NCBI GenBank assembly: GCA_003599535.1
Contig: QZKQ01000071.1
Coordinates: 1 to 64,000 of the forward strand
Source of the DNA: Candidatus Zixiibacteriota bacterium
Lineage (GTDB): Bacteria > Electryoneota > B3-LCP
Direction of reading: 5' to 3'
Length of the DNA stretch: 64,000 bases
Below, piece after piece: positions 2,375-59,011 of the stretch. The translations under genes were made by a program, and so were the position numbers. The notes under the pieces are model-generated. The model was not told where the DNA came from. It made no database searches and saw only the letters and a list, made by a program, of their open reading frames with translations. Each line of letters starts with the position of its first letter. The first letter of the stretch is position 1.

Positions 2375-2460
2375 TTATGTTAATGCGTCCCGAAGCGTCC
2401 AGTTCCGCGACCGGCGGTCTCGTCCGCCGGGGTGCGGCCTACTTTTGCATCGGAGGAGAC

Positions 2461-4455
2461 ATGAGCTGTTCACATTTCAACAGGGGGGTGGTTGCGCTGC
2501 TGCTTTTGGCCGGGATGAGCGCCGCCGTTCAGGCCCAACTGGTAACCCCGGAATGGATCGTGGAATACGGCACCCCGGGAGTTGGCCTGCAGGGACAATT
2601 CATCGCCCTTTCCCCGGAGGGGGGCATCTGCGTGGCCGGCAGATCCGGGGGATACCCTTCCTGCGATTATCTGACCACCAAGTTCAGCCCCGACAGCGTT
2701 TTGCTCTGGTCGGCGACCTACAACGGCCCGGCCAACGGGGTGGACCAAATCTGCGCGCTGGCGGTGGACACCCAGGGTAACGTCTACGTCACGGGGATCA
2801 GTGGAACCAGCGCCGACCGGGATTTCGCCACCATCAAGTACGACTCCGCCGGGGTACAGCAGTGGCTTAACCGGTATGACAGTGGTCAGAATGACCACTG
2901 CGCGGGTCTGGCGGTGGATGAGGCCGGCAACGTCTACGTCGCGGGACAAAGTCAAGTCAACCCGTTGCACAACTGTCTAACTCTGGTAAAGTATGACAGC
3001 ACCGGGAACCAGGTATGGGTGGTCAACTACACGGTGCCGGGCGGCTATGAGAATCATCAGGCTTCGGGAATTGATCTGGACAGCCAGGGGAATATCCTGC
3101 TCGCCGCGGACAATTATGGTTCCGAGAACAGAAATTCCGTTCTGCTGAAGTATTCCCCCGCCGGCCAGTTGCTGTGGCAGACGATTTACCCCCAAACGGC
3201 CTTGGATTGGTCCACCAAAGTGGTTGTCGGGGAAAACGACGCGGTGTACCTGGCCGGGACCAAGTGGCTAAGTTCGAGCCATCTGGCGCCGTATGTCGCG
3301 AAATATTCCCCGGCCGGCCAGCAGCTCTGGAATTCCGTCTACTCCGCGCCCCCCGTAACCATCAACACCTGCCTGAAACCCGTGCTGGACGCCGACGGCA
3401 ATGTGATCCTGGGCTGCAACCTGGGGTACGATTACGGCGCTCTGAAATATAACAGCGCCGGAGAGTTGCAATGGGCCGCCACCTGGGGCAACCCTTCCCT
3501 TAGCTCTGATGCCGCTATGGATGTCGCCGTAGATGATGAAGGCAACGTCTACGTGACCGGCAGCAGTTGCTTGGTCAGCAGCTACTGGGATTGCAATACC
3601 GTGAAATTCGACGCCCAGGGGCAGTTCCAGTGGCTCCACACTTACGGTGACAATCCCGGGAACTCCGAGGAAGGAGGATATGCCGTCGCCGCCGATGGCG
3701 AGGGTCACGTCTACGTCGCCGGCCTGTGCGATGTCATGCTGGATTACCAGGTGCTGCTGATCAAACTGGACCAGGCGGACCTGGATTTGACCTTCACCCT
3801 CGTCCCGATGGTCCTGCCCATTCAGATGCCCGCCACCGGCGGCGTGTTCGACTTCCTGGCCTTCGCCACCAACAACGATTCCGTGCCCCAGGCGGTGAAC
3901 CTGTGGACGAAGCAGATCCTGCCCAACGGAGCGATGCAGAGCCCGGTGCTGGGGCCCGTATCCCTCACCCTGCCGCCGGGAACCCTGGGCTGGTTCCGCC
4001 ACCAGAACGTGCCCGGCACGGCGCCGGCGGGAAGCTACACCTACATCGGCTGCCTGGGGGTCTATCCCAACGGCGCCTGGGCCGCGGACAGCCTGGTCTA
4101 CGCCAAGCAGACGCGCGGCGTGGGCGAATGGGTGGACGACTGGGCCAACTGGGGCGATCCCTTCCCCGGGCAGGCACAGCCTGCTCTTCTCCCTTCGGGT
4201 CTGACCTTGGAGGCGTTCCCCAATCCCTTCAATCCGGAAACGGCTGTCGGCTACCGGTTATCGGCTCCCGGCCTGGTCAGCCTCCGGGTTTACGATACCG
4301 CCGGACGTGTGGTGGCGACGCTGGTGGACGGCTGGAGGGAAGCGGGCGCGCACGAGGCGACCTTCGACGCTTCCGGGTTTCCCAGCGGGATCTACTTCGC
4401 CCGGCTGGAGGCGGGAAGCTTCACCCAGACACAGAAGCTCATTCTGCTGAAGTAG
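2461..4455 (+). CDS. Secreted SBBP-type beta-propeller repeat protein with C-terminal sorting domain
   Basis: Repeats such as DxxGNVYVTG.SGTSADRDFATIKYDSAGVQQW; signal peptide after RBS GGAGGAG; C-terminus NPFNPETAVGYRLSAPG..KLILLK. ORF track start 2377; 2461 is the better start. Confidence 0.85.
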   Translation: MSCSHFNRGVVALLLLAGMSAAVQAQLVTPEWIVEYGTPGVGLQGQFIALSPEGGICVAGRSGGYPSCDYLTTKFSPDSVLLWSATYNGPANGVDQICALAVDTQGNVYVTGISGTSADRDFATIKYDSAGVQQWLNRYDSGQNDHCAGLAVDEAGNVYVAGQSQVNPLHNCLTLVKYDSTGNQVWVVNYTVPGGYENHQASGIDLDSQGNILLAADNYGSENRNSVLLKYSPAGQLLWQTIYPQTALDWSTKVVVGENDAVYLAGTKWLSSSHLAPYVAKYSPAGQQLWNSVYSAPPVTINTCLKPVLDADGNVILGCNLGYDYGALKYNSAGELQWAATWGNPSLSSDAAMDVAVDDEGNVYVTGSSCLVSSYWDCNTVKFDAQGQFQWLHTYGDNPGNSEEGGYAVAADGEGHVYVAGLCDVMLDYQVLLIKLDQADLDLTFTLVPMVLPIQMPATGGVFDFLAFATNNDSVPQAVNLWTKQILPNGAMQSPVLGPVSLTLPPGTLGWFRHQNVPGTAPAGSYTYIGCLGVYPNGAWAADSLVYAKQTRGVGEWVDDWANWGDPFPGQAQPALLPSGLTLEAFPNPFNPETAVGYRLSAPGLVSLRVYDTAGRVVATLVDGWREAGAHEATFDASGFPSGIYFARLEAGSFTQTQKLILLK

Positions 4456-5616: not shown

Positions 5617-5994
5617 TCAACCGGGCAGGTTCACGTCCGGCAGCAGCTTGGCGATCAGTTCTTTCATCTGCCAGAACATGTAAGGCTTCTCCAGGAAGGC
5701 ATCCGCCCGCTCTCGCTGCATCTGCATCTCCACGTCCGACAGTTGCACACCGCTGATCAGCACCACCGGAGCGGGATGCTCGTCTGACTTGATTTTTTCC
5801 AGGAGCTCCACTCCGGTCATGCCCGGCATGAAAATGTCGGCGATGACCAGGCAGGGCCGCTGACGCTGGTAGATTTCCCAGCCCGTGTGCCCATCTGTGG
5901 CGTGGAAAATGGTGAACCCCAGCGTCTCCAGGTAATCCTGCAGGATGGTGCGGATGGTCGGATCGTCGTCCACAACCAGGACCATGCGATTCAT
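5617..5994 (-). CDS. Response regulator receiver-domain protein (stand-alone)
   Basis: LVVDDDPTIRTILQDYLETLG, VIADIFMPGMTGVELLEKIK, VLISG, EKPY. Confidence 0.9.
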   Translation of the reverse strand: MNRMVLVVDDDPTIRTILQDYLETLGFTIFHATDGHTGWEIYQRQRPCLVIADIFMPGMTGVELLEKIKSDEHPAPVVLISGVQLSDVEMQMQRERADAFLEKPYMFWQMKELIAKLLPDVNLPG

Positions 5995-6135: not shown

Positions 6136-6210
6136 TGGTGACCCCCAGGGGATTCGAACCCCTGTTACAAGATCGAAAATCTTGAGTCCTAACCACTAGA
6201 CGAGGGGGCC
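6136..6210 (-). tRNA. tRNA-Glu (anticodon TTC), CCA encoded
   Basis: Reverse complement folds as a cloverleaf: GGCCCCC acceptor, anticodon stem-loop CAAGA-TTTTCGA-TCTTG, T-arm GGTTCGAATCC, 3' CCA. Confidence 0.95.
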
Positions 6211-6507: not shown

Positions 6508-6975
6508 ATGAAATCCGACCTCGTCAAAGCGTTTATCGCCGCTCTGGAATCGGACGATCCGCACCGTGCAGGCGAGTACTTGTCTGACGATTTCACCTTT
6601 CAGGGGCCCATTCCCGGCCCCTTGAATAAAGCGGAGTTTCTGGACTATTTCAGCGCTTTGAAGAAGGGCTTGCCGGACTTCGCCTTCAACCTGGACACCA
6701 TCCGGGAAGAGGAAGGCATCCTCTTCGGCGTGCTCCACCGCACCGGGACCCACACCGGGGAACTGGCGCTGCCCGGCATCGTGCCCATCCTGCCCACCGG
6801 AATGTCGGTGGCCCTGCCCAACGAGCCCATCCATTTCCACTTTTGCGGCAACCAGATCTGCGAGCTGGAAATTGACCACGCCTCCGGGGGAGGCCTGGAG
6901 GGCATCCTGGAGCAGTTGGGGGCCGAAATGCCGCAAAACTGGAACTGGCACCAGGAACCCGTACCGTCGATATGA
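6508..6975 (+). CDS. SnoaL/NTF2-like ester-cyclase family protein, paralog 1 of 6
   Basis: LESDDPHRAGEYLSDDF..GTHTGELALPGI..GGGLEGILEQLG signatures shared with the five downstream genes. Confidence 0.75.
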   Translation: MKSDLVKAFIAALESDDPHRAGEYLSDDFTFQGPIPGPLNKAEFLDYFSALKKGLPDFAFNLDTIREEEGILFGVLHRTGTHTGELALPGIVPILPTGMSVALPNEPIHFHFCGNQICELEIDHASGGGLEGILEQLGAEMPQNWNWHQEPVPSI

Positions 6976-7021
6976 CCGGGGATACCGTGACCGTCGCGTA
7001 GCCGGATGGTACCTCGACTGG

Positions 7022-7054
7022 AAAAAACCGTGCCTGAAAAGCGCACGGTTTTTT
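7022..7054 (+). terminator. Rho-independent terminator after paralog 1
   Basis: AAAAAACCGTGC...GCACGGTTTTTT. Confidence 0.8.
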
Positions 7055-7179
7055 CCTTCCCGTGCCATCGAATTAAACTGGAAATAGCCAAATTCGGGCT
7101 AACTCCCTGCCGTATCCTTTAATGAATCACGCAAACGACCGGCCATGCTTGGTCGCTGTTTTATCCTTGACCCGAAGCC

Positions 7180-7713
7180 ATGATCGAACCACAAGAGATG
7201 ACGGATACGCAGGACCGGCTGTCCACCCGGGTGGACTTCATCCTCGCGCTTATGCCCGAGATGGAATCCGGCCATCCCGACCGAGCCGTCCGGTACCTCT
7301 CGGACGATTTCATATACACCGACACGTTCCCCGAACCCCTGAACCGGGATCAGTACCTGGAATTCCAGCGTCTCCTGAAGCAGGCCTTCCCCGATTGGTC
7401 GCATCACCTGCGGGATTTCGAAGCGGAGGGCGAAGATATCGTTCACGCGATCCTGGAGCGCGGCGGCACGCACACAGGCGAGCTGGTGTTGCCCGGATTG
7501 CAGCCCATACCTCCCACCGGCGTCACCGTACAGTTACCGCCCGAGCCGGTCATCTTCTCCTTCTTCGAAGACATCATTGACAAAATCCAGGTAGAAGAAA
7601 TCCCGGGCGGCGGTCTGGAAGGCCTCCTGAGCCACCTGGGGGTCGAAATGCCCTGGACCTACAGCGGCCTGTGGACCCGGCGCCTGATCAAACCGCCCGC
7701 CGCCATTCTCTGA
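7180..7713 (+). CDS. SnoaL/NTF2-like protein, paralog 2 of 6
   Basis: HPDRAVRYLSDDF, KQAFPDWSHHL, GTHTGELVLPGLQPIPPTG, PGGGLEGLLSHLG. Confidence 0.75.
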   Translation: MIEPQEMTDTQDRLSTRVDFILALMPEMESGHPDRAVRYLSDDFIYTDTFPEPLNRDQYLEFQRLLKQAFPDWSHHLRDFEAEGEDIVHAILERGGTHTGELVLPGLQPIPPTGVTVQLPPEPVIFSFFEDIIDKIQVEEIPGGGLEGLLSHLGVEMPWTYSGLWTRRLIKPPAAIL

Positions 7714-7779
7714 TTCCTCCTGCATCGCCATGCACCTTCCCGGGACCTCCCGCCGGGATATCCCTGCCTTTCGCGCCGG

Positions 7780-7920
7780 ATGTTATCAATTATAACATAA
7801 TTGTTGCATTTGTAACAATTAGGCGCTTTTCGATCCAACGGGGCAGCAGTCGCCTCGTACCCCTTACGTACCCTTGATTTACCCGCCGTACGACCCGCTA
7901 AGTTACTGTTATTTATAACA
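7780..7920. promoter_or_regulatory. Cluster of three AT-rich inverted repeats upstream of paralog 3
   Basis: ATGTTAT-N5-ATAACAT (7780-7798), AATTGTT-N8-AACAATT (7799-7820), TGTTAT-TT-ATAACA (7907-7920), all with perfect arms. Confidence 0.6.
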
Positions 7921-7968
7921 TTATTTAAAGCACCAACCCTCTCGTGGGGCTATTCAGCAGAGGAACCC

Positions 7969-8487
7969 ATGGAAAAATTGAACCTCCTCAAGGCAGTCGC
8001 GGCGGAACTGGAAATGGAAAATCCCAGGGGCTTGGCCCGTTACCTGTCGGATGATTTCGTCTACAGCGGCGCGATTCCGGAACCCTTGAGCAAGCACCAG
8101 TATATTGAGTTCATGGCGGCCATCAAGCAGGCGTTGCCGGACTGGTCTTACGCCATCGAGGCGATCAAGGATCTCGGCCACAATGTCATCCGGCTGTTGG
8201 TGCAGCCCCAGGGGACGCACATGGGAGATCTGATCCTGCCGGGGATGGAGCCGATTTCTGCCACGGGCGCCCGGCTGGTCCTGCCCCACGAGATCGTGGA
8301 TTACACCTTCAAAGACCATAAAATCCTGGAAATTGTCTCCTGGACGAGCTCGGGAGGAGGGTTCAGCGGTCTGCTGACGCAGCTGGGCGCCGACCTCACC
8401 CGCATTTTCTGGTCCATGTTGGGCCTGCCGCAAACGGAGCGGGAGACGCGGGAAAGAGCGCCGGCGCGCGAGGCGGTTCTGGCCTGA
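7969..8487 (+). CDS. SnoaL/NTF2-like protein, paralog 3 of 6
   Basis: LARYLSDDFVYSG, KQALPDWSYAI, GTHMGDLILPGMEPI, SGGGFSGLLTQLG. Confidence 0.75.
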   Translation: MEKLNLLKAVAAELEMENPRGLARYLSDDFVYSGAIPEPLSKHQYIEFMAAIKQALPDWSYAIEAIKDLGHNVIRLLVQPQGTHMGDLILPGMEPISATGARLVLPHEIVDYTFKDHKILEIVSWTSSGGGFSGLLTQLGADLTRIFWSMLGLPQTERETRERAPAREAVLA

Positions 8488-8731
8488 TTCCAGCCGATTC
8501 CGGCCGGGAAAAAAGTGACAACAACGGGCCCGCCCCGGGGGTAGTCTGCGGATATCCCCGGAGCGGGTTTGTTGTTTTCCGGCGAATTTTTCGGCGTTTG
8601 CGCACCAAACTGGGGTTTCAGGCTGTGCGTATCTCATCACAGGCGGGAAATGGCAGCGCCATTCCCCGATCCCCCTGCGTTTCACGCATCACCCGCGCCT
8701 GCATCCCACTGCGACCCTTGAAAGTGACGCC

Positions 8732-9196
8732 ATGAAGAATTCCCAAATTGTCAAGACCGTCATGGACCATCTCGAATCGGACGATCCGGAGCGAGCGCGC
8801 AAGTTCCTCGCCCCCGACTTCCACTTCGAAGGGTCCGTGACCCGACCCCTGAACCTCGACCAGATGCTGGAGATCGTCACCGCCATCATGAAGGCCTTTC
8901 CCGACTGGAGCATGCAGTTTTCCCTGCTCCACGAGGACGGCGAAGTGGTGCGGGGGATGGTCGAACCGCAGGGCACACACACGGGAGATGATTTACGCTT
9001 GCCGGGCATCGCGCCGATCCCGGCCACCGGCATCTCGGTCATTCTGGCCCGGACGCCGATCCAATTCCTGGTCCGTGAAGGGAAAATTACGCAGATCCGC
9101 CTGGAGGCGGGGTCCAGCGCCGGCATTCCCGCAATTCTGGAACAACTGGGGCTGGAACCGGAGGCCATTTTACCGCAACTGCTGGAAGAAGAATGA
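8732..9196 (+). CDS. SnoaL/NTF2-like protein, paralog 4 of 6
   Basis: LESDDPERARKFLAPDFHFEG, KAFPDWSMQF, GTHTGDDLRLPGIAPIPATG, AILEQLG. Confidence 0.75.
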   Translation: MKNSQIVKTVMDHLESDDPERARKFLAPDFHFEGSVTRPLNLDQMLEIVTAIMKAFPDWSMQFSLLHEDGEVVRGMVEPQGTHTGDDLRLPGIAPIPATGISVILARTPIQFLVREGKITQIRLEAGSSAGIPAILEQLGLEPEAILPQLLEEE

Positions 9197-9374
9197 CCGG
9201 CTCTTAGAGTTGCGGGCCGGGATCCTCTGGCTGCCTGATCCCGTCCCCGCTTGCGCCGATCCCCCTGTCCCGCCGGAGGCGATCCTCCGGCGCCTCCAGA
9301 CCCTCAGCGTACGGTGCGCCACGACCTATCCTGATCGAGTATCGCGATCACTATCGTAACGACGGGAGGCACCC

Positions 9375-9857
9375 ATGGAACGGGTGGACATCATCAAGGC
9401 GTTGGTCGCGGACCTGGAATCGGATGATCCGCGCCAGGCGGCAGCCTATCTTACCGAGGACTTTCGACTGATCGGAGAAAGCCCCCAACCGCTAGACAAG
9501 GACGCGTTCCTGGAACTGGCTAAAGCCCTGAAACGCGGTTTCCCCGATTGGTCTTATGGTCTGGGCGAGTACATGAGCCAGCACGGCCGGGTGATCCGGA
9601 CGGTGATGAGTAACTCCGGCACCCACGTGCAGGAGTTCTCGCTGCCGGGCCTGCGGCCGGTACCGCCGACGGGATTTTCCATCGCCCAGCCTCCGGAAGC
9701 CATGGAATTCGAATTCCGGGGATCGCGCATCTGCGTCATCCGGGTGGAAGCGGCCTCCGGCGGCGGACTCATGGGCCTGCTGGAGTGGCTGGGAGTCGAA
9801 CTCCCCGTCTGTACCCATGGATTGTTCAAAAAAAAGCCGGAAGTGGAATACGCATGA
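9375..9857 (+). CDS. SnoaL/NTF2-like protein, paralog 5 of 6
   Basis: LESDDPRQAAAYLTEDF, KRGFPDWSYGL, LPGLRPVPPTG, SGGGLMGLLEWLG. Confidence 0.75.
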   Translation: MERVDIIKALVADLESDDPRQAAAYLTEDFRLIGESPQPLDKDAFLELAKALKRGFPDWSYGLGEYMSQHGRVIRTVMSNSGTHVQEFSLPGLRPVPPTGFSIAQPPEAMEFEFRGSRICVIRVEAASGGGLMGLLEWLGVELPVCTHGLFKKKPEVEYA

Positions 9858-9888
9858 TGGCTGCGGCCATGATCTGCATGAGGTAAGG

Positions 9889-10344
9889 ATGGATAAAATC
9901 GCGATCGTTAAAACCTTCATGGCGGAAATCGAATCCCGGGACCCGACCCGCGCCAGCCGTTACCTGTCGGACGACTTCGTGTTCCAGGGGCCGGCGCAGC
10001 ATCAACTGGACAAGGACGACTTTCTCCAAGCCATCGTTGCCATCCGGGAGGCATTTCCCGACTGGTCCTTCAACTTGGGCGAAGTGACGGAACGCGGGGG
10101 CCGCGTCCGGGTGCAGATCAGTCCCGGCGGCACCCATACGCGGGCTCTGCGGCTGCTGGACATGATTTCCCTGCCGGCCACCGGGACCATCGTGGATCTG
10201 CCGCCCGAAACCCTCCAGTTCATCTTCGAAGGGCTGTTGATCCTGGAGATTCGCGTGGAGAAGGCTCGCAAGGGATGGATGGGGAAACTGCTGGCCGAGC
10301 TGGGGATCCCCCACCCCACCCGGGCCCTCGAGCCGGTAACGTAA
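9889..10344 (+). CDS. SnoaL/NTF2-like protein, paralog 6 of 6
   Basis: IESRDPTRASRYLSDDFVFQGP, REAFPDWSFNL, GGTHTRALRLLDM, LLAELG; ATG at 9889 preceded by AGGTAAGG. ORF track start at 9817 overlaps paralog 5. Confidence 0.75.
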   Translation: MDKIAIVKTFMAEIESRDPTRASRYLSDDFVFQGPAQHQLDKDDFLQAIVAIREAFPDWSFNLGEVTERGGRVRVQISPGGTHTRALRLLDMISLPATGTIVDLPPETLQFIFEGLLILEIRVEKARKGWMGKLLAELGIPHPTRALEPVT

Positions 10345-10453: not shown

Positions 10454-10482
10454 TCCGGGCCGGCAGAATCTGCCGGCCCGGA
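10454..10482. terminator. Strong hairpin between convergent genes
   Basis: TCCGGGCCGGCAGA/TCTGCCGGCCCGGA palindrome followed by ATTTATTAT. Confidence 0.6.
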
Positions 10483-10510: not shown

Positions 10511-12253
10511 TCAGGGGACCAGGTCCACTCTCTCCACCACTGCGCCTTCCGGCGTGATCACCGACAGGGTCACCCGGGAACCGTCCACCTCCACCAGGCT
10601 CAGGTGGGACAGCGGGTAAAAGGCCTGTACCGCCCCGGCCCAGGGGACCTCGCGGTCGCGCTGGTAGAACGGGGCGCCGGCGCCTCCGGTGACGATCTGC
10701 CACACGGGGTGGGTATAGGCGGAATCCACCCGGGCATCCACCAGGGTGCGGCTGTAGTTGTGCTCGTGGCCGAAGAAGGCGGCCGCCACCCGGTGGCGGA
10801 CGAGAAGACCCCAGAAATGGTCGCGGAGAGCCAGAATTTCCGGGTCCTGGCCCTTCCACCACATGGCGTCCTGCACGTGCCCGCCGTTGGGGAAGGCGGG
10901 ATCGTGGGCCAGTACGAAGAGGTGTTCCTGCCCCCGGGCGCGGGCGGCGGCCAGGTCGCGGTCGAGCCACTCCAACTGTTCGGGGCGGAAGAATCCCTGG
11001 CGCAGACCCGGCTCTCCGGCGGCTAACGGGCCGGGCCCTTTGAGGAACCAGGTGTTGTTGAGCATGACGAAATGGGCGGGGCCCCAGTCGAAGGAGTAGA
11101 CGTTCTCGCGGTACGTCGGGAAGCCCGCGGCGGCGGAATCGGGGCCGTTTACGGGGTTGACGAAGTGCCGGGCGAAGAGGGCCTCCCCCGATTCTTCTCC
11201 CACACGGGGCAGGTAGTCGCCTTTGCCTCCCTCGGCCATCCACTGCACGGTCTGGTCGTGGTTGCCCATGCCTTCGTAGAGGGGAATCCGGGCGGCGATG
11301 GGGGCCGTGGCGCGGTTCCAGGCGCGCAGTTGCCGGGCCATGTCCTCGGGATCCGTGGTGAAGCCGCTGACCAGGTCGCCGGGGAAGAGGATGAACTCGG
11401 CGCCGGCGGCGGCCGCCTGGTTCAACAGCGCCTGGAGCGCCGGCTGGCTGACCCCTTCGACGAGGTACTCCCCGCCCAGGCTGTTACCCCGGCTGTCGCA
11501 CAACACGGCGAAGCGAACCGGGGCTGCCGCGCCCGGGGCCGGGGCGGTGCGGAAGGCGTAGACGGGGGTGGAAAATTCCTGCCCGCCGCCGGCCTCCCAG
11601 GTGAGGCGGTAAGTATACCGGGTGGCCGGCTCCAGGCCATCCAGGGGCAGTTCGAAGGTTTGCGCCGGGGTCGGGGGAGCGATGATCCGCCCGCCGGGAT
11701 CGAGGGTGAGGCGGAAATTGGCGGGGACGTCAAACGCTCCCGAAACCACCGCCCCGCGATCGCTGACCAGGTCCAGGAAGGGGCCCTCGGCCAGGGCGGG
11801 GGCGGAATGGTACCGGCCGTCGGGGGTGCGCCGGTAGGCGAAGCTGCGGTCCAGGACGCGCAGCCGCTCGCCGAGAATCTGGAGGCGCAGGCAGACAGAA
11901 CCTCCGCCGCGGCCGGCCAGGTCGTTGACGTCGGCCCGGATATATTCCAGGTCCTTCAGGTGCAGGCGGACGGTCAGGCGCCGGCCGCCATCATCGGGGG
12001 ACAGCGTGCCGGAGACACGGTAGGCGGGGTAGTCGAGGGGGGCATCCAGGGGCCGCACGCCCAGGAACGCCTGGCCGCCGGTGCAGGAGTCCCAGGTTTC
12101 CACGACCACCTGCACGGCGCCGTCGGGGGCGACGGTGACAGCCGGCTCGGACTTCAGGAAGGTGCCGGGGTTCGGCCGGTCCGCGGCGGCGGGCCGGGCG
12201 GCCAGCAGGAGGGCGGCGCAGAGGACAAAACGTACCCGCAGGGCAAGGGTCAT
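10511..12253 (-). CDS. Secreted metallophosphoesterase (purple acid phosphatase-like, Fn3-like N-terminus)
   Basis: FAVLCDSRG, LFPGDLVSG, GNHDQ, FVLAHDP, FFGHEHNYSR motifs; start CAT at 12251-12253 overlaps the stop of the upstream kinase gene. Confidence 0.85.
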   Translation of the reverse strand: MTLALRVRFVLCAALLLAARPAAADRPNPGTFLKSEPAVTVAPDGAVQVVVETWDSCTGGQAFLGVRPLDAPLDYPAYRVSGTLSPDDGGRRLTVRLHLKDLEYIRADVNDLAGRGGGSVCLRLQILGERLRVLDRSFAYRRTPDGRYHSAPALAEGPFLDLVSDRGAVVSGAFDVPANFRLTLDPGGRIIAPPTPAQTFELPLDGLEPATRYTYRLTWEAGGGQEFSTPVYAFRTAPAPGAAAPVRFAVLCDSRGNSLGGEYLVEGVSQPALQALLNQAAAAGAEFILFPGDLVSGFTTDPEDMARQLRAWNRATAPIAARIPLYEGMGNHDQTVQWMAEGGKGDYLPRVGEESGEALFARHFVNPVNGPDSAAAGFPTYRENVYSFDWGPAHFVMLNNTWFLKGPGPLAAGEPGLRQGFFRPEQLEWLDRDLAAARARGQEHLFVLAHDPAFPNGGHVQDAMWWKGQDPEILALRDHFWGLLVRHRVAAAFFGHEHNYSRTLVDARVDSAYTHPVWQIVTGGAGAPFYQRDREVPWAGAVQAFYPLSHLSLVEVDGSRVTLSVITPEGAVVERVDLVP

Positions 12254-13443
12254 GACGACTCCAGGGGAAGATGGATGGTGAACCGGCTGCCGCGCCCCAA
12301 CTCGCTGGCGACTTCGATGCTGCCGCCGTGGGCTTCCACGGTGCGCTTGACAATGGCCATACCCAGCCCGGTGCCGTCCTGGCGCTGGGAAAAGAAGTCG
12401 TCGAACACCCGGGCGGCCACTTCCGGGGTCATCCCCGTGCCGGTGTCGCGGAATTCCAGGCACAGGAGGCGCCCCTGGCGGCGGCAGGAGAAGGCGAATG
12501 TGCCCCCTTCGGGCATGGCGGCGGTGGCGTTGGCGGCCAGGTTGTAGAAAACGTTCTTGAACTTGTCCGGGTCGAAGAAGACCGGGCCGTCGTACTCCAC
12601 GTGCGTCTGGAAGCGCACGCCGCTGCCTTCGAAGTCGCGGCCCAGGAACTCTTCCACCTCGCGCAGCCAGTCGGCCAGGTTCACCCGGCGCATGTGGATG
12701 TCGCGCTCGCCCTTGGAGAAGCGCAGAATTTCATTGGCCATGTCCACCAGTCGCTGCACCTCCCGCACGATGGTGTCGGCGTAGCGGCGGCGCTTTTCCG
12801 CGGCCAGGGCATCGCCGGCCAGGAGCTGGGCGTAGCCGCTGATGCAGGTCAGCGGCTTCTTCAGGTCGTGGATGATGCCGGAGGCGAGCCTGCCTACCAG
12901 TGAGAGACGCTCTTGTTGCAGGAGCTGTTCCTGGGCGGCCTTCAGGTCGGCCAGCGCCTGGGCGAGCTGGCGGTTCTTTTCCAGGATCTTTTCGGCGAAG
13001 CGGGTGTCGCTGCGGCGCAGGTTGTGGGACAGCGCCCGGGTCACCTCAAAGTGGATGGAGGGGTGCTCGCGGATCAGCTCGTCGAAATCGGGGCGGGAGA
13101 TAACCAGCAGCTCGCAGGGGGTCAGGGCCCGCACGGTGGAGGATCGGGGGCGGGATTCGATCAGGGCCATCTCGCCGAAGAAGTCCCCGGAGCGGCCCAG
13201 GGTGGCCACCACCTCGCTGCCGGCGCTGGTGTCGCGAACGATCTCCACCCGGCCCCGCTCGATGATGTAGAAGGCTTCCGGCGGTTCCCCGCTGCTGATG
13301 ATGACTTCGCCGGACTCCACCGAGAGGATGGAGACCAGGGTGGCCAGGCGTTCCAACTCTTCGAATTTCAGCCCGTCGAAGAAGTGGATGCGCCGCAGGA
13401 GCAGCACGATGGTTTCGTGGTTCGCCGTCAGGTCGGTGGTCAT
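12250..13443 (-). CDS. Sensor histidine kinase with N-terminal cyclic-nucleotide-binding (CRP-like) domain
   Basis: SGEPPEAFYIIERGRVEIVR..GDFFGEMALIESRPRSSTVRA (cNMP domain); LASGIIHDLKKPLTCISGYAQLL (H-box); NLAANATAAMPEGG, DTGTGM, GTGLGMAIVKRTVEAHGG. Confidence 0.9.
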   Translation of the reverse strand: MTTDLTANHETIVLLLRRIHFFDGLKFEELERLATLVSILSVESGEVIISSGEPPEAFYIIERGRVEIVRDTSAGSEVVATLGRSGDFFGEMALIESRPRSSTVRALTPCELLVISRPDFDELIREHPSIHFEVTRALSHNLRRSDTRFAEKILEKNRQLAQALADLKAAQEQLLQQERLSLVGRLASGIIHDLKKPLTCISGYAQLLAGDALAAEKRRRYADTIVREVQRLVDMANEILRFSKGERDIHMRRVNLADWLREVEEFLGRDFEGSGVRFQTHVEYDGPVFFDPDKFKNVFYNLAANATAAMPEGGTFAFSCRRQGRLLCLEFRDTGTGMTPEVAARVFDDFFSQRQDGTGLGMAIVKRTVEAHGGSIEVASELGRGSRFTIHLPLESS

Positions 13444-22679: not shown

Positions 22680-23579
22680 ATGAACCATTCTTCCCGGATT
22701 TCCCGCCCCCTCCTGTCCGCCCTGGTTTGCGTTCTCCTGGCGCTGGCCTGGCTGCTGGCCTCCTGCGACAGCGACGACTCCGGCGGCACCTTCGCTCTGC
22801 CCCCGCCCCAGCCCCTGGTTCATCCCGCCGACTGCACCCTGGTCCTGGTGCCCGCCGGCCCCGTGGTCCTGGGGAACGTCCCGGAGGGATGGGGCAATTA
22901 CCAGGTCACCCCGGAGGTGGTCCCGGTGGATTCCTTTTACCTGGAACGCTACGAAGTCAGCAACCTGCGCTACGCCGCCTACCTGGCGGCGGCGCTGGAT
23001 TCCGGTTTGGTGGAGTATGATGGACAGAATGTCTACCAGGTTTCCACCGGAAAGCTGCTGCTGCGAACTGCGGCGGCGGAATCGCGCCTCCAGTACGTGG
23101 ATTCCCTGGACACCTTCGTGGCCGAAGCCGGGTACGAGAACCTCCCGGTGGCCCTGGTGAGCTGGTACGGCGCCCAGGCCTTCGCCGAGTTCTACGGCCG
23201 GCGGCTGCCCACGGAAGTCGAATGGGAGAAGGCGGCGCGCGGCACGGTGGACCTGTTCGGTAAAGTAGACGGCGTGGGGGTGGGCTACCCCTACCCCTGG
23301 GGCGACCAGGCCCCCAACGCCCAACTGGCCAACTTCGACAGCGGCCTGGGGGGGCTGGAGGTAGTGCAGTCCTATCCCCAGGGCATGAGCTGGTACGGAG
23401 CCTTCAACATGGGAGGCAATGCGTGGGAATGGACCGCCACCGCCAACGGGAGTTCCCGGGTGCGGCGGGGCGGCAGTTATCTCTCCTCGGCGGAAATGCT
23501 TCTGACCGCCGCCCGCTTCTTCTCCGATCCTGCCATCACCGACAAGGCCATCGGCTTCCGCTGCGCGATGGATCCCTGA
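22680..23579 (+). CDS. SUMF1/formylglycine-generating-enzyme-like lipoprotein
   Basis: LLASCDS lipobox; VPVDSFYLERYEVSNLRYAAYL, PVALVSWYGAQAFAEFYGRRLPTEVEWEKAARG, GNAWEWTA, RRGGSYLSS, GFRCA. Confidence 0.9.
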   Translation: MNHSSRISRPLLSALVCVLLALAWLLASCDSDDSGGTFALPPPQPLVHPADCTLVLVPAGPVVLGNVPEGWGNYQVTPEVVPVDSFYLERYEVSNLRYAAYLAAALDSGLVEYDGQNVYQVSTGKLLLRTAAAESRLQYVDSLDTFVAEAGYENLPVALVSWYGAQAFAEFYGRRLPTEVEWEKAARGTVDLFGKVDGVGVGYPYPWGDQAPNAQLANFDSGLGGLEVVQSYPQGMSWYGAFNMGGNAWEWTATANGSSRVRRGGSYLSSAEMLLTAARFFSDPAITDKAIGFRCAMDP

Positions 23580-23600
23580 CCCCGAACTCACCCTTCCATA

Positions 23601-23632
23601 TCCCGCCCAGTAACTGCGGCGGGATTTTTTTT
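23601..23632 (+). terminator. Rho-independent terminator
   Basis: TCCCGCC...GGCGGGA followed by T8. Confidence 0.8.
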
Positions 23633-23746
23633 GCGCCTCTCTTCACAAATGTTGCTGCGGCTTCGTATCATCAGCACGGGGCCGTGTTGGCCTTTCTGTA
23701 CCCTCACGGGCACTTGTCACGACCGCATGATTTTCTTGGAGGGCGT

Positions 23747-24958
23747 ATGAGAGGGATTTCCCGGCTGGCTATTCCGGCGCTCCTGGCGGCGATGATTCCG
23801 GCGGCCGCCTTGGCGCAGACGGTGGATATCTACGGGCAGGTGGGGACCTACGACGGTTCCTGCATCCCGGGTGAAGGCATCAACGGCCTCACCGTGCAAC
23901 TGTACACCAGTGAAGCACCGTACCTGAATTTCTGCGATACCACCTGCACCGATTCCAACTTCATGACCCAACACTCGCTGAACTCCCCCCACGGCATCTT
24001 CTATTTCGACGACGTGCCGCAGCGCGGCGACTATTGGCTGGAGATCTGCGTCCCCGACGGCTGGGCGGTGGCGGCGGATCCCACCCAGTTTCCCGGCTGG
24101 AATGCCAATCCCCGCGAGGTCGGCGACGATTACTTCCGCTGCTTCCTGCTGCTGCCGGCCTGCGGTTTCTCCCCGCACAGCAAGGGCTTCTGGAAGCACC
24201 AGGCGACGGTGGCCGCGGGAGGCCCGGGCAATGCCCAAGTCCCGGCGGACGACCTGCAGGATTTCCTGGACTGGATTTACGCCGAATTAGACGGCGCCAA
24301 CTACTTCCCGGTGGAAGGCGTCACTTCGGTGGGCGGCGCGGCGCTGACGCCCCAGGATATGCTGAACACCTTCGAACTGCCCAACGGCGGGGCCGCCGGC
24401 ATGGTCAACAAGGCCAGGAAACAGCTCCTGGCCCTGCTGCTGAACGTGGCGGCGGACTACCTGGACGTCTACGGGGTCATCAGCCAGGACGGCCGCACCG
24501 TGTCCCAGGCCTTCCAGTTCGGCGCGGACATGATCACCGGCGGCGGCGATGAAATTGAGACCGCCAAGGACGTCATGGATTGGATCAACAACGGCAATGT
24601 CGTGCCGGAAGGGTGGATTCCGGGCACCTACGGGCTGGCCTACGCCCCCGGCGATGACGAGGAGCGGCCGGTGGAAGAACCGCTGGCGGCGTCGGACCGC
24701 TTGACGCTCTACCGCAACTATCCCAACCCCTTCAACCCCTCTACCGTCATCCGTTTCGATCTGCGCGAGGCGGGCCGGGTGGACCTGCGCGTGTACGACC
24801 TGGCAGGCCGGCTGGTACAGGCCGTCGAGGCGGGATGGCGGGAGGCGGGGTTGCAGGAAATCGCCCTGGACGCCGCGGGTCTGCCTTCCGGGCTCTACCT
24901 GTACCGCCTGGAAAGCGGGGGAACCGCCGCTGCGGGAAAAATGATCCTGATGAAATAG
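23747..24958 (+). CDS. Secreted protein with SPHSKGFWKHQ domain and C-terminal sorting domain (paralog A)
   Basis: Signal MRGISRLAIPALLAAMIPAAALAQ after GGAGGGCGT; C-terminus NYPNPFNPSTVIRFDLREAG..KMILMK. Confidence 0.8.
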   Translation: MRGISRLAIPALLAAMIPAAALAQTVDIYGQVGTYDGSCIPGEGINGLTVQLYTSEAPYLNFCDTTCTDSNFMTQHSLNSPHGIFYFDDVPQRGDYWLEICVPDGWAVAADPTQFPGWNANPREVGDDYFRCFLLLPACGFSPHSKGFWKHQATVAAGGPGNAQVPADDLQDFLDWIYAELDGANYFPVEGVTSVGGAALTPQDMLNTFELPNGGAAGMVNKARKQLLALLLNVAADYLDVYGVISQDGRTVSQAFQFGADMITGGGDEIETAKDVMDWINNGNVVPEGWIPGTYGLAYAPGDDEERPVEEPLAASDRLTLYRNYPNPFNPSTVIRFDLREAGRVDLRVYDLAGRLVQAVEAGWREAGLQEIALDAAGLPSGLYLYRLESGGTAAAGKMILMK

Positions 24959-36416: not shown

Positions 36417-38003
36417 ATGAAAAGCCTGATTCTCGCTACAGTTGCCGTGGCATTACTTTTCATCCCTGCCTCTGCCGTCACGATCTATGTGCCAGAGGAT
36501 TACCCCACCATCGGCGCTGCCGTCAACGCCGCCTGCGACGGCGATTCCATTCTGGTGGGACCCGGCATCTATGATCCAGTTCCCATCGTGTACCATGAGC
36601 CGGATGATATCACGTTGCTGGGCAACGGGTTCTACGGACCCGACCGCACCACCATCATGGGCAATTTCAGCGGCGAAGTGGAAGCCAAGATAGACATCCG
36701 CCACGCGGATGGATGGGAAATCGGTGGTTTTGAGCTGGTGGTGGGGCACAAAGGGATCAACACCGAAGGCAACAACGGCTGCCATATCCACGATATTTAT
36801 GTTCATGACGTGACTTGGGATTATGCGGATGGGGTAATGGTCAACGGCAACAACTTCCTCATCGAGCGGAGCATATTCCAGGGCTGCCCTTACGCCGGCA
36901 TTGAGATCTGGTATCCCCCGCAGTCAGGGCACATTTTCCGCAACAACACCATCGTGAATTGCAATAACGGAATCCTGGTGCGCGGCCAGACACAGAACCT
37001 GGTGATTGAGAACAACATCATCATGAACAACGATGATGGGGTGGAATTCACCTACGGAACCTGGACGGGGAGCGCAGTGCTGGATTACAACAATGCTTTC
37101 GGCAACTCCCCCAATTGGTCCGGCTGCACCCCCGGCCCGCACAACCTATCCGCCGATCCGCAGTTCATGGGTGGATCGGGCGGGGAACAGTACATGCTCC
37201 AGCCCACCTCCCCCTGCATTGACGCCGGGGATCCCGCCTCGCCGCCCGACCCTGACGGCACCATCGCTGATATCGGCTGCTTCTACTTCAACCAGGCCTT
37301 CACCCCCGGACAGCTGACCCTGGCCGTGGTCCCGGTCAGCCCGCCGGTGGTTCTCCCCCCGCAGGGCGGGTCTTTCGACTACACCTGCGCCATGGCCTGC
37401 GATTCCACCGGGTACGCCTTCTACGACGGCTGGGTCACCCTGCGCCTGCCCGACGGCCAGACCATGGGCCCGGTGCTGACCAAGACCAACATGCTCCTGG
37501 GTCAAGGCGCCTCCAACACCGTGACGCTGTCCCTGTTCGTATCCCCGTGGGCCATGCCGGGGATCTACGCCCTGCACGCCTGCCTGGGACAGGCGGAATC
37601 CGGCACGGTGTGGGCCGAAGACAGCCTGACCTTTGAGAAGCTGCCGTTCGACGGCCCCGGAATCGAAACGGGCTACGCCATCTTCTGCGGCTGGGAGCAG
37701 AGCGAGAAGGTTTACCTGGGTGCGGTGGATCTGGGCGTGGAGAAGGGGCCGGAACTGTCCGCCGGGCCCAATCCGTTCAACCCCTCGACGGTTGCGAGAT
37801 ACGAGATGCGAGATGCGAGTTACGTTACTCTCCGGGTCTATGATACGGCCGGGCGGGAGGTGGCTACCCTGGTGGAGGGATGGAGAGCCGCGGGGTCCCA
37901 CGAAGTGTCCTTCGACGCGTCCGGGCTGCCGTCGGGGATCTATTTCGCCCGCCTCCAGGCGGGGGACGTGGCCCAGGTGCAGAAGTTGATTCTTCTGAAG
38001 TAG
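36417..38003 (+). CDS. Right-handed parallel beta-helix secreted protein with C-terminal sorting domain
   Basis: TIYVPEDYPTIGAAVNAACDGDSILVGPGIY; IFRNNTIVNCNNGILVRGQTQNLVIENNIIMNND; C-terminal GPNPFNPSTVARYEMRD..KLILLK. Confidence 0.88.
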   Translation: MKSLILATVAVALLFIPASAVTIYVPEDYPTIGAAVNAACDGDSILVGPGIYDPVPIVYHEPDDITLLGNGFYGPDRTTIMGNFSGEVEAKIDIRHADGWEIGGFELVVGHKGINTEGNNGCHIHDIYVHDVTWDYADGVMVNGNNFLIERSIFQGCPYAGIEIWYPPQSGHIFRNNTIVNCNNGILVRGQTQNLVIENNIIMNNDDGVEFTYGTWTGSAVLDYNNAFGNSPNWSGCTPGPHNLSADPQFMGGSGGEQYMLQPTSPCIDAGDPASPPDPDGTIADIGCFYFNQAFTPGQLTLAVVPVSPPVVLPPQGGSFDYTCAMACDSTGYAFYDGWVTLRLPDGQTMGPVLTKTNMLLGQGASNTVTLSLFVSPWAMPGIYALHACLGQAESGTVWAEDSLTFEKLPFDGPGIETGYAIFCGWEQSEKVYLGAVDLGVEKGPELSAGPNPFNPSTVARYEMRDASYVTLRVYDTAGREVATLVEGWRAAGSHEVSFDASGLPSGIYFARLQAGDVAQVQKLILLK

Positions 38004-57859: not shown

Positions 57860-59011
57860 CTATTTCAGTTGCAACCCCAGCACCAGGCCGTACGTCTCCT
57901 GTTTGTCCAGAGGATTGTCATGTGCGGCACTCAGCTGGGCGTAGTCGAAGCGGTACCAGAAGTCCAGGCCGGGAGTAGAAAAGTCCGCTCCCAGGGAGAA
58001 ACCCTGCGAGCTGGGGTTCCGGTCTCCGAGGATGTCATAGTAGGTCCCCGAGCGGACCGCCGCTCGCAGGAGCAGATCGGGGGTAGCCCGCAGCTTCCCC
58101 CAGGCTTCCATCCCCACGTGCCGGATGATGCCGTCCTTTTCGTTCTGGGGATCATCGTCGCTCCAGGCGGTAAACAGCGCCTGGTAGAACGGCCTCGGGC
58201 TCCGGTCCTCGCGCAGATCCACCAGTTCCTTGTCAAATTCGGCGTTCACCACCCAGCCCATGATGAAGGGTTCGGCTTCCAGGTTGGCCCCGGCCAGGCC
58301 GGCTAACGCCGCGAACACGTCGCAGGAGAGGCCCAGGCGAAGATTCTGGGGCAGCGGTTTCTCCGGCCCTATTCCGTAGTCCAGGGAGGGACCAATATTG
58401 GTCAGGGTGGCGCCCAGCCCCAGGCCCTGCATCCAGCCCGGCCGGTAGAGAGCGCCCAGGTCCGCGGCCCATCCCTGGCTGGTTTTGTTTCCTGCAGTGC
58501 TCTGGGGGGACAGGTGGCTGCCGAGGTATTTGAAGGCCAGGCCCACCCCCAAATCCGGGTGGACGCGGGCGCCGCCGGCGACCGCCGCGGCCAGCTCATA
58601 GCTGTGAAAGGTGCCAGCAGGATTGTTGTTCTCGTTCCGGCTTTCGGTCGTGCCGTAACTGGTGTAGATGAAATGTCCGCCCAACGTCGCACCCCAGGCC
58701 GGTACGGGGTAGACGGCCGCGGCGTAGCGGTGGTACAGGTCGGGCAGGTTAAACGACGGCAGCAGGTCGGTATTGGCGTAATAGCCTTCGATCCGCGTCT
58801 GGAATCCCAGCGCGCCGGGGTTCCACCAGACGGCGGCGGGGTTGTCCCATCGCGCCACTCCGGTTTCGCCCATGCCCGCCGAGACCGCATCAGGGACCAG
58901 CTTCAGGAAGATCGCCCCCGCTTCGCTGGGGCCGTCCGCCCGGGCGGTGCCCGCCAGCGCGCCGGCCAGCAGCATAACCCCCAACCCTCGCCGTACCATC
59001 TCCACCTCCAT
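57860..59011 (-). CDS. PorV/PorQ-like outer-membrane protein
   Basis: AIFLKLVPDAVSAGMGETGVARWDNPAAVWWNPGALG motif; terminal LGLQLK; start may be 58999. Confidence 0.8.
   Translation of the reverse strand: MEVEMVRRGLGVMLLAGALAGTARADGPSEAGAIFLKLVPDAVSAGMGETGVARWDNPAAVWWNPGALGFQTRIEGYYANTDLLPSFNLPDLYHRYAAAVYPVPAWGATLGGHFIYTSYGTTESRNENNNPAGTFHSYELAAAVAGGARVHPDLGVGLAFKYLGSHLSPQSTAGNKTSQGWAADLGALYRPGWMQGLGLGATLTNIGPSLDYGIGPEKPLPQNLRLGLSCDVFAALAGLAGANLEAEPFIMGWVVNAEFDKELVDLREDRSPRPFYQALFTAWSDDDPQNEKDGIIRHVGMEAWGKLRATPDLLLRAAVRSGTYYDILGDRNPSSQGFSLGADFSTPGLDFWYRFDYAQLSAAHDNPLDKQETYGLVLGLQLK

Follow-up and report, generated by a model that had tools for sequence, protein, structure and literature searches.

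Six divergent SnoaL-like paralogs in tandem at one conserved site of a Zixiibacteriota genome: a probable old, lineage-specific expansion

Background

The aldol condensation carried out by SnoaL requires Asp121, together with Asn33, Gln105, His107 and His119, and IdmH functions without SnoaL's acid/base pair (PMC6830212). NTF2-like proteins that act as immunity proteins also exist (PMC3924330). A literature search for SnoaL arrays, or for tandem duplication of SnoaL genes in bacteria, returned nothing relevant. Here we examine six consecutive genes in a stretch of 64,000 nucleotides from a Candidatus Zixiibacteriota bacterium (contig QZKQ01000071.1; hereafter "the window"), whose products belong with SnoaL by profile and, in the two copies modelled, by predicted fold, but lack its catalytic residues. 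On balance we favour the view that they are an old, lineage-specific tandem expansion of a divergent SnoaL-like subfamily, encoding soluble hydrophobic-pocket proteins for a small non-polyketide molecule.

Results and discussion

Six intact and long-diverged genes

The array comprises six intact open reading frames lying head to tail on the plus strand between positions 6508 and 10344, just as an earlier sequence-only reading of this DNA had described them:

6508..6975, plus strand: paralog 1, SnoaL-like, 155 aa
7198..7713, plus strand: paralog 2, SnoaL-like, 171 aa (an alternative longer start at 7180 would give 177 aa)
7969..8487, plus strand: paralog 3, SnoaL-like, 172 aa
8732..9196, plus strand: paralog 4, SnoaL-like, 154 aa; GTHTGDDL with one added residue, and no GGG turn
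9375..9857, plus strand: paralog 5, SnoaL-like, 160 aa; AlphaFold2 model made
9889..10344, plus strand: paralog 6, SnoaL-like, 151 aa, the most diverged of the six (an alternative upstream start at 9817 would give 175 aa); AlphaFold2 model made

G+C content by codon position (about 0.64/0.40/0.78 in the six paralogs) follows a coding-type pattern. The proteins span 151-172 aa, so that the length range originally proposed (about 150-177 aa) holds except at its upper end, which is reached only from the longer start of paralog 2. Any two paralogs share 32-42% identity, with alignment scores that exceed those of shuffled sequences by 33-74 SD in each pairing, which marks them as genuine homologs whose duplication is not recent. 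Direct DNA repeats between the copies fall almost entirely within coding sequence, with no spacer duplicated, from which it follows that the duplications are old; the possibility of recent, near-identical copies, raised in the sequence-only reading, is thus at odds with both observations. Most copies carry the shared motifs listed in that reading, the exceptions being GGGLxGLLxQLG, which is replaced by SSAGIPAILEQLG in paralog 4 and by RKGWMGKLLAELG in paralog 6, and the GTHTG/LPG block, whose alterations had been assigned to paralogs 4-6 and in fact begin in paralog 3 (GTHMG).

A distinct subfamily within the SnoaL family

The Pfam SnoaL and SnoaL_2 profiles match all six paralogs (best E 6e-11). 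Paralogs 1, 2, 4 and 6 exceed the curated cut-offs of both, paralog 3 falls 0.2 bits under that of SnoaL_2 and paralog 5 lies below the cut-offs; five of the six are therefore above a curated cut-off or no more than 0.3 bits from one. In NCBIfam no model was matched above its cut-off: the ketosteroid isomerase-related model TIGR02096 gave only 17 bits with paralog 2, against a cut-off of 97.1 bits, and its best E-value among 11 family members was 3.9e-6. AlphaFold2 models of paralog 5 (pLDDT 88.5, pTM 0.83) and paralog 6 (pLDDT 89.9, pTM 0.84) matched SnoaL2, AclR and SnoaL structures in Foldseek, so these two copies are predicted to adopt the SnoaL/NTF2 alpha+beta cone fold; limonene epoxide hydrolase was returned as well. 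The family assignment made from the DNA alone is therefore upheld by profiles and by the predicted fold of two copies.

Within that family the array proteins form a subfamily distinct from the ordinary SnoaL ester cyclases. Motifs such as FPD, GTHTG, PTG and QLG are partly generic to SnoaL proteins; the marks of the subfamily are an LxLPGxxPIPPTG insertion, the LPxE motif and, ahead of the last helix, a glycine-rich turn accompanied by four additional residues. In the phylogenetic tree one fully supported group (100/99) unites the array proteins with the members from the nearest genus (G005), a further copy on contig C102 of the source genome and two proteins from other phyla; it stands separate from the ordinary SnoaL proteins encoded in this genome and in others of its phylum.

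The site and its neighbours

The array sits in a setting that can be recognized in related genomes:

5617..5994, minus strand: response-regulator receiver protein, left neighbour of the site and conserved across the six genera
6136..6210, minus strand: tRNA-Glu(ttc), which forms the conserved left edge of the site
10511..12463, minus strand: metallophosphoesterase, conserved right neighbour
12250..13443, minus strand: cNMP-binding histidine kinase, conserved right neighbour, which served to locate the site in relatives

Histidine kinase, metallophosphoesterase, tRNA-Glu and response regulator follow one another in this order in each of the six genera of the family that were compared. In G005, which kinase identity also marks as the nearest genus (66%, versus 53-58% for the others), a pair of SnoaL genes is found between metallophosphoesterase and tRNA-Glu; the metallophosphoesterase gene there is split over two contigs and was joined to the site by inference. 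A SnoaL-free gap of about 120 bp occupies the position in G001, and the interval in G002, G003 and G004 likewise contains no SnoaL gene, matches to proteins with type IX secretion (T9SS) tails being found there instead. Since the neighbours are kept and relatives show empty or two-copy states, the array grew at the tRNA-Glu/metallophosphoesterase site in the line leading to the source genome and G005. The G005 site (locus L053, 9212-11075) also encodes a tandem pair of CTACH-containing proteins that bear T9SS tails, and the interval as a whole looks like a variable site in this family. Several proteins with type IX sorting tails, together with a PorV-like protein, are encoded elsewhere in the window (2377-4455, 23423-24958, 36417-38003 and 57860-59011), and the source organism probably has a T9SS.

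Distribution and history of the copies

Seven members of the subfamily are present in the source genome, six in the array and one on C102, and five in G005, one of them frameshifted. In the remaining four genera no member is present except a decayed fragment in G003. This remnant is 5'-truncated and lies beside an LVIVD-repeat gene, the same neighbour that the C102 copy has (the two LVIVD proteins are 48% identical over 465 aa). In a sample of 386 genomes, three genomes outside the phylum had a match at E<=1e-8, with one gene each, and a follow-up of one of those three phyla found a match in two of seven genomes. Outside the family, then, members are rare singletons, and the profile search and phylogeny agree with the local expansion that had been proposed, which is lineage-specific by site and copy number across six genera.

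The nearest array member to C161a, the first of the two SnoaL genes at the G005 site, is paralog 1 (46% identity). A single clade of the six paralogs has a p-AU of 0.107, so that some of the array duplications may be older than the split from G005; that clade with the C102 copy added is rejected (p 0.0005). The frameshifted G005 copy (contig C165, 852-1320, locus L015) lies beside an intact one, downstream of a UspA-like gene and a transporter-like gene, and shows that copies have been lost as well as gained.

One may also consider an altogether different origin, in which the paralogs are immunity proteins, i.e. diverged NTF2-fold antitoxins against the polymorphic toxins of neighbouring cells. 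Arrays of diverged paralogs with a pseudogene in a relative do resemble orphan-immunity arrays, and NTF2-like immunity proteins are known. Nevertheless, we consider this unlikely: the profiles matched are SnoaL and SnoaL_2, with no Imm-NTF2 family of Pfam appearing even at E<=1, PADLOC gave no defence-family match, no toxin, T6SS or contact-inhibition genes were found among the window genes scanned, and the relatives are single genes in unrelated contexts. A phage or defence origin of the array was likewise rejected, with no meaningful PHROGs or PADLOC match and no relatives in the viral contigs searched; a plasmid search gave one weak match.

Downstream of the C102 copy (locus L054, 8777-12154), and sharing its strand, come genes for an Rrf2 regulator and a DUF6448 protein, then NorC/NorB-like genes; a perfect palindrome, TTGTGGTA-TATTAG-TACCACAA, lies upstream of the regulator. 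It is possible that this unit responds to nitric oxide. A link between Rrf2 and the array itself was discarded, as the Rrf2-type palindrome lies downstream of the C102 SnoaL gene and has no match in the window.

Spacers and transcription

The spacers between successive paralogs measure 222, 255, 244, 178 and 31 bp, in keeping with the earlier estimate of 180-260 bp for most of them. The signals recognized in and beside the array are:

7020..7056, plus strand: intrinsic terminator-like hairpin 3' of paralog 1, symmetrical (AAAAAA..TTTTTT)
7780..7821, no strand assigned: AT-rich palindromes ATGTTATCAATTATAACAT and TAATTGTTGCATTTGTAACAATTA, within the spacer that separates paralogs 2 and 3
10454..10482, plus strand: terminator-like hairpin 3' of paralog 6, facing the convergent metallophosphoesterase gene

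The first hairpin, with its perfect 14-bp stem (-24.6 kcal/mol, z = -6.2), substantiates the terminator that had been noticed after the first gene. Separate transcription, as originally suggested, fits most of the array; the exception is paralogs 5 and 6, which probably share one transcript, given a spacer of only 31 bp. The palindromes at 7780-7821 possibly form an operator or promoter and belong to a group of AT-rich palindromes at 7780-7920, including TTGTTGCATTTGTAACAA, in a genome of 63% G+C. Each of the two that were searched (ATGTTATCAATTATAACAT and TAATTGTTGCATTTGTAACAATTA) occurs once in the genome and so defines no regulon; the idea of a shared operator for the array was accordingly dropped.

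Catalytic positions and the pocket

Four of the positions that matter in SnoaL were compared in the array (Gln105, His107, His119 and Asp121). The Gln105 position holds Glu in five of the six paralogs and Thr in paralog 4, the His107 and His119 positions are hydrophobic in all six, and the Asp121 position is hydrophobic save for one Ser. None of the four residues is conserved, and the aldol-cyclase set is thus missing; for the last strand the register varies with the alignment chosen, and no conserved Asp or His is found there in either case.

Could these proteins still be polyketide cyclases or hydroxylases like SnoaL and SnoaL2, working for a biosynthetic cluster at another genomic location? 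Their closest solved relatives by sequence and fold (AclR, SnoaL2 and IdmH) suggest as much, and IdmH is itself active without SnoaL's acid/base pair. Yet, in addition to the unconserved residues, Pfam scanning of window genes around the array found no polyketide genes, in line with the sequence-only reading, and a single tailoring enzyme would hardly be expected in six copies, so that we hold this very unlikely.

The strands alternate between hydrophobic and polar residues, with the hydrophobic residues and the Glu sharing one face; a second conserved inner polar residue was not found on the strands examined. Inward-facing strand residues are 45% identical among the six paralogs, versus 18% for outward-facing ones, a stronger contrast than in canonical SnoaL proteins (43% versus 28%). 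The earlier proposal of a diversified ligand-binding set did not survive this comparison: pocket divergence was not seen, and diversification of pockets or ligands was set aside as unsupported. The residues of a protein core are generally better conserved than those of its surface, and for this reason the inner/outer contrast is weak evidence about chemistry. Taken together, sequence and predicted fold support a hydrophobic pocket with one conserved carboxylate, the Glu at the SnoaL Gln105 position, the Thr of paralog 4 being a point against this model.

A serious rival is that the paralogs are enzymes of ketosteroid-isomerase, epoxide-hydrolase or dehydratase type, whose pockets have diverged for different substrates as a catabolic or detoxifying set. 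The carboxylate on the inner face would suit such enzymes, as would the weak match to the ketosteroid-isomerase-related model and the limonene epoxide hydrolase hit, and enzymatic NTF2-like proteins are mostly intracellular (PMC3924330). On the other hand, the inner residues are conserved rather than diversified, no second polar residue accompanies the Glu on the strands examined, and no metabolic genes suggesting a pathway were recognized beside the array among the window genes scanned. We therefore give this explanation a real but minor chance.

The expansion of soluble pocket proteins that we favour would have proceeded by local duplication at the one conserved site, bounded by tRNA-Glu and the response regulator on one side and by the metallophosphoesterase and kinase on the other. 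Each product would be cytosolic, in line with the lack of an N-terminal hydrophobic stretch in every copy; with its hydrophobic pocket and single conserved carboxylate, it may bind or convert a small, hydrophobic, non-polyketide molecule. Pocket residues are conserved although the surface has diverged, and most copies are set off by spacers of their own; what distinguishes the copies is therefore probably their expression, partner or oligomer surface and not their chemistry. More speculatively, and with doubt prevailing, the separately expressed proteins might represent a new class of enzymes or carriers for small molecules, built around the single carboxylate and expanded in a T9SS-bearing family.

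Comparison with known systems

The array offers a natural series, with six old duplicates at one site and relatives showing empty, two-copy and decayed states, through which the birth and loss of a family of soluble pocket proteins can be traced. Neither Pfam nor NCBIfam offers a curated model specific to the subfamily, whose members are otherwise liable to be misnamed as polyketide or ester cyclases.

With the SnoaL (PF07366) and SnoaL_2 (PF12680) families the array shares the fold, the FPD, GTHTG and PTG motifs, the C-terminal QLG and the profile matches. In contrast to canonical SnoaL, it adds LxLPGxxP between GTHTG and PPTG, as well as LPxE, and it has four more residues and a glycine-rich turn in place of the canonical xxWxxxD segment before the last helix. 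AclR/SnoaL2 (PDB 2gey, 2gex, 8r2b) and IdmH (6hnn) are its best PDB relatives, and like IdmH the array proteins have no acid/base residues at the positions of SnoaL Asp121 and His107; identity to these proteins is, however, only 16-23%, and the array is tandem and outside any polyketide cluster.

Relatives from other phyla, such as those on contig MGUL01000175.1 and in genome G217, have the same GTHKGELDLSALGMPNVPATG, LPxE and GGGVMGVLSQLGV, as single genes rather than a tandem array. MGUL01000175.1 is labelled Elusimicrobia bacterium RBG_16_66_12; its genes (a BMP lipoprotein and an ABC transporter) look more Chloroflexota-like, and our impression is that it could be a mislabelled or mixed bin.

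Tandem SnoaL genes as such do occur elsewhere: G013, which belongs to a different family of this phylum, carries ordinary SnoaL genes in two sets of three (contigs C19 and C2), and contig C51 of the source genome has a tandem pair. These match the canonical model much more strongly, are smaller than the array and lie on other contigs. Thus tandem SnoaL sets are known elsewhere in the phylum, and the present array is larger and of a less known subfamily.
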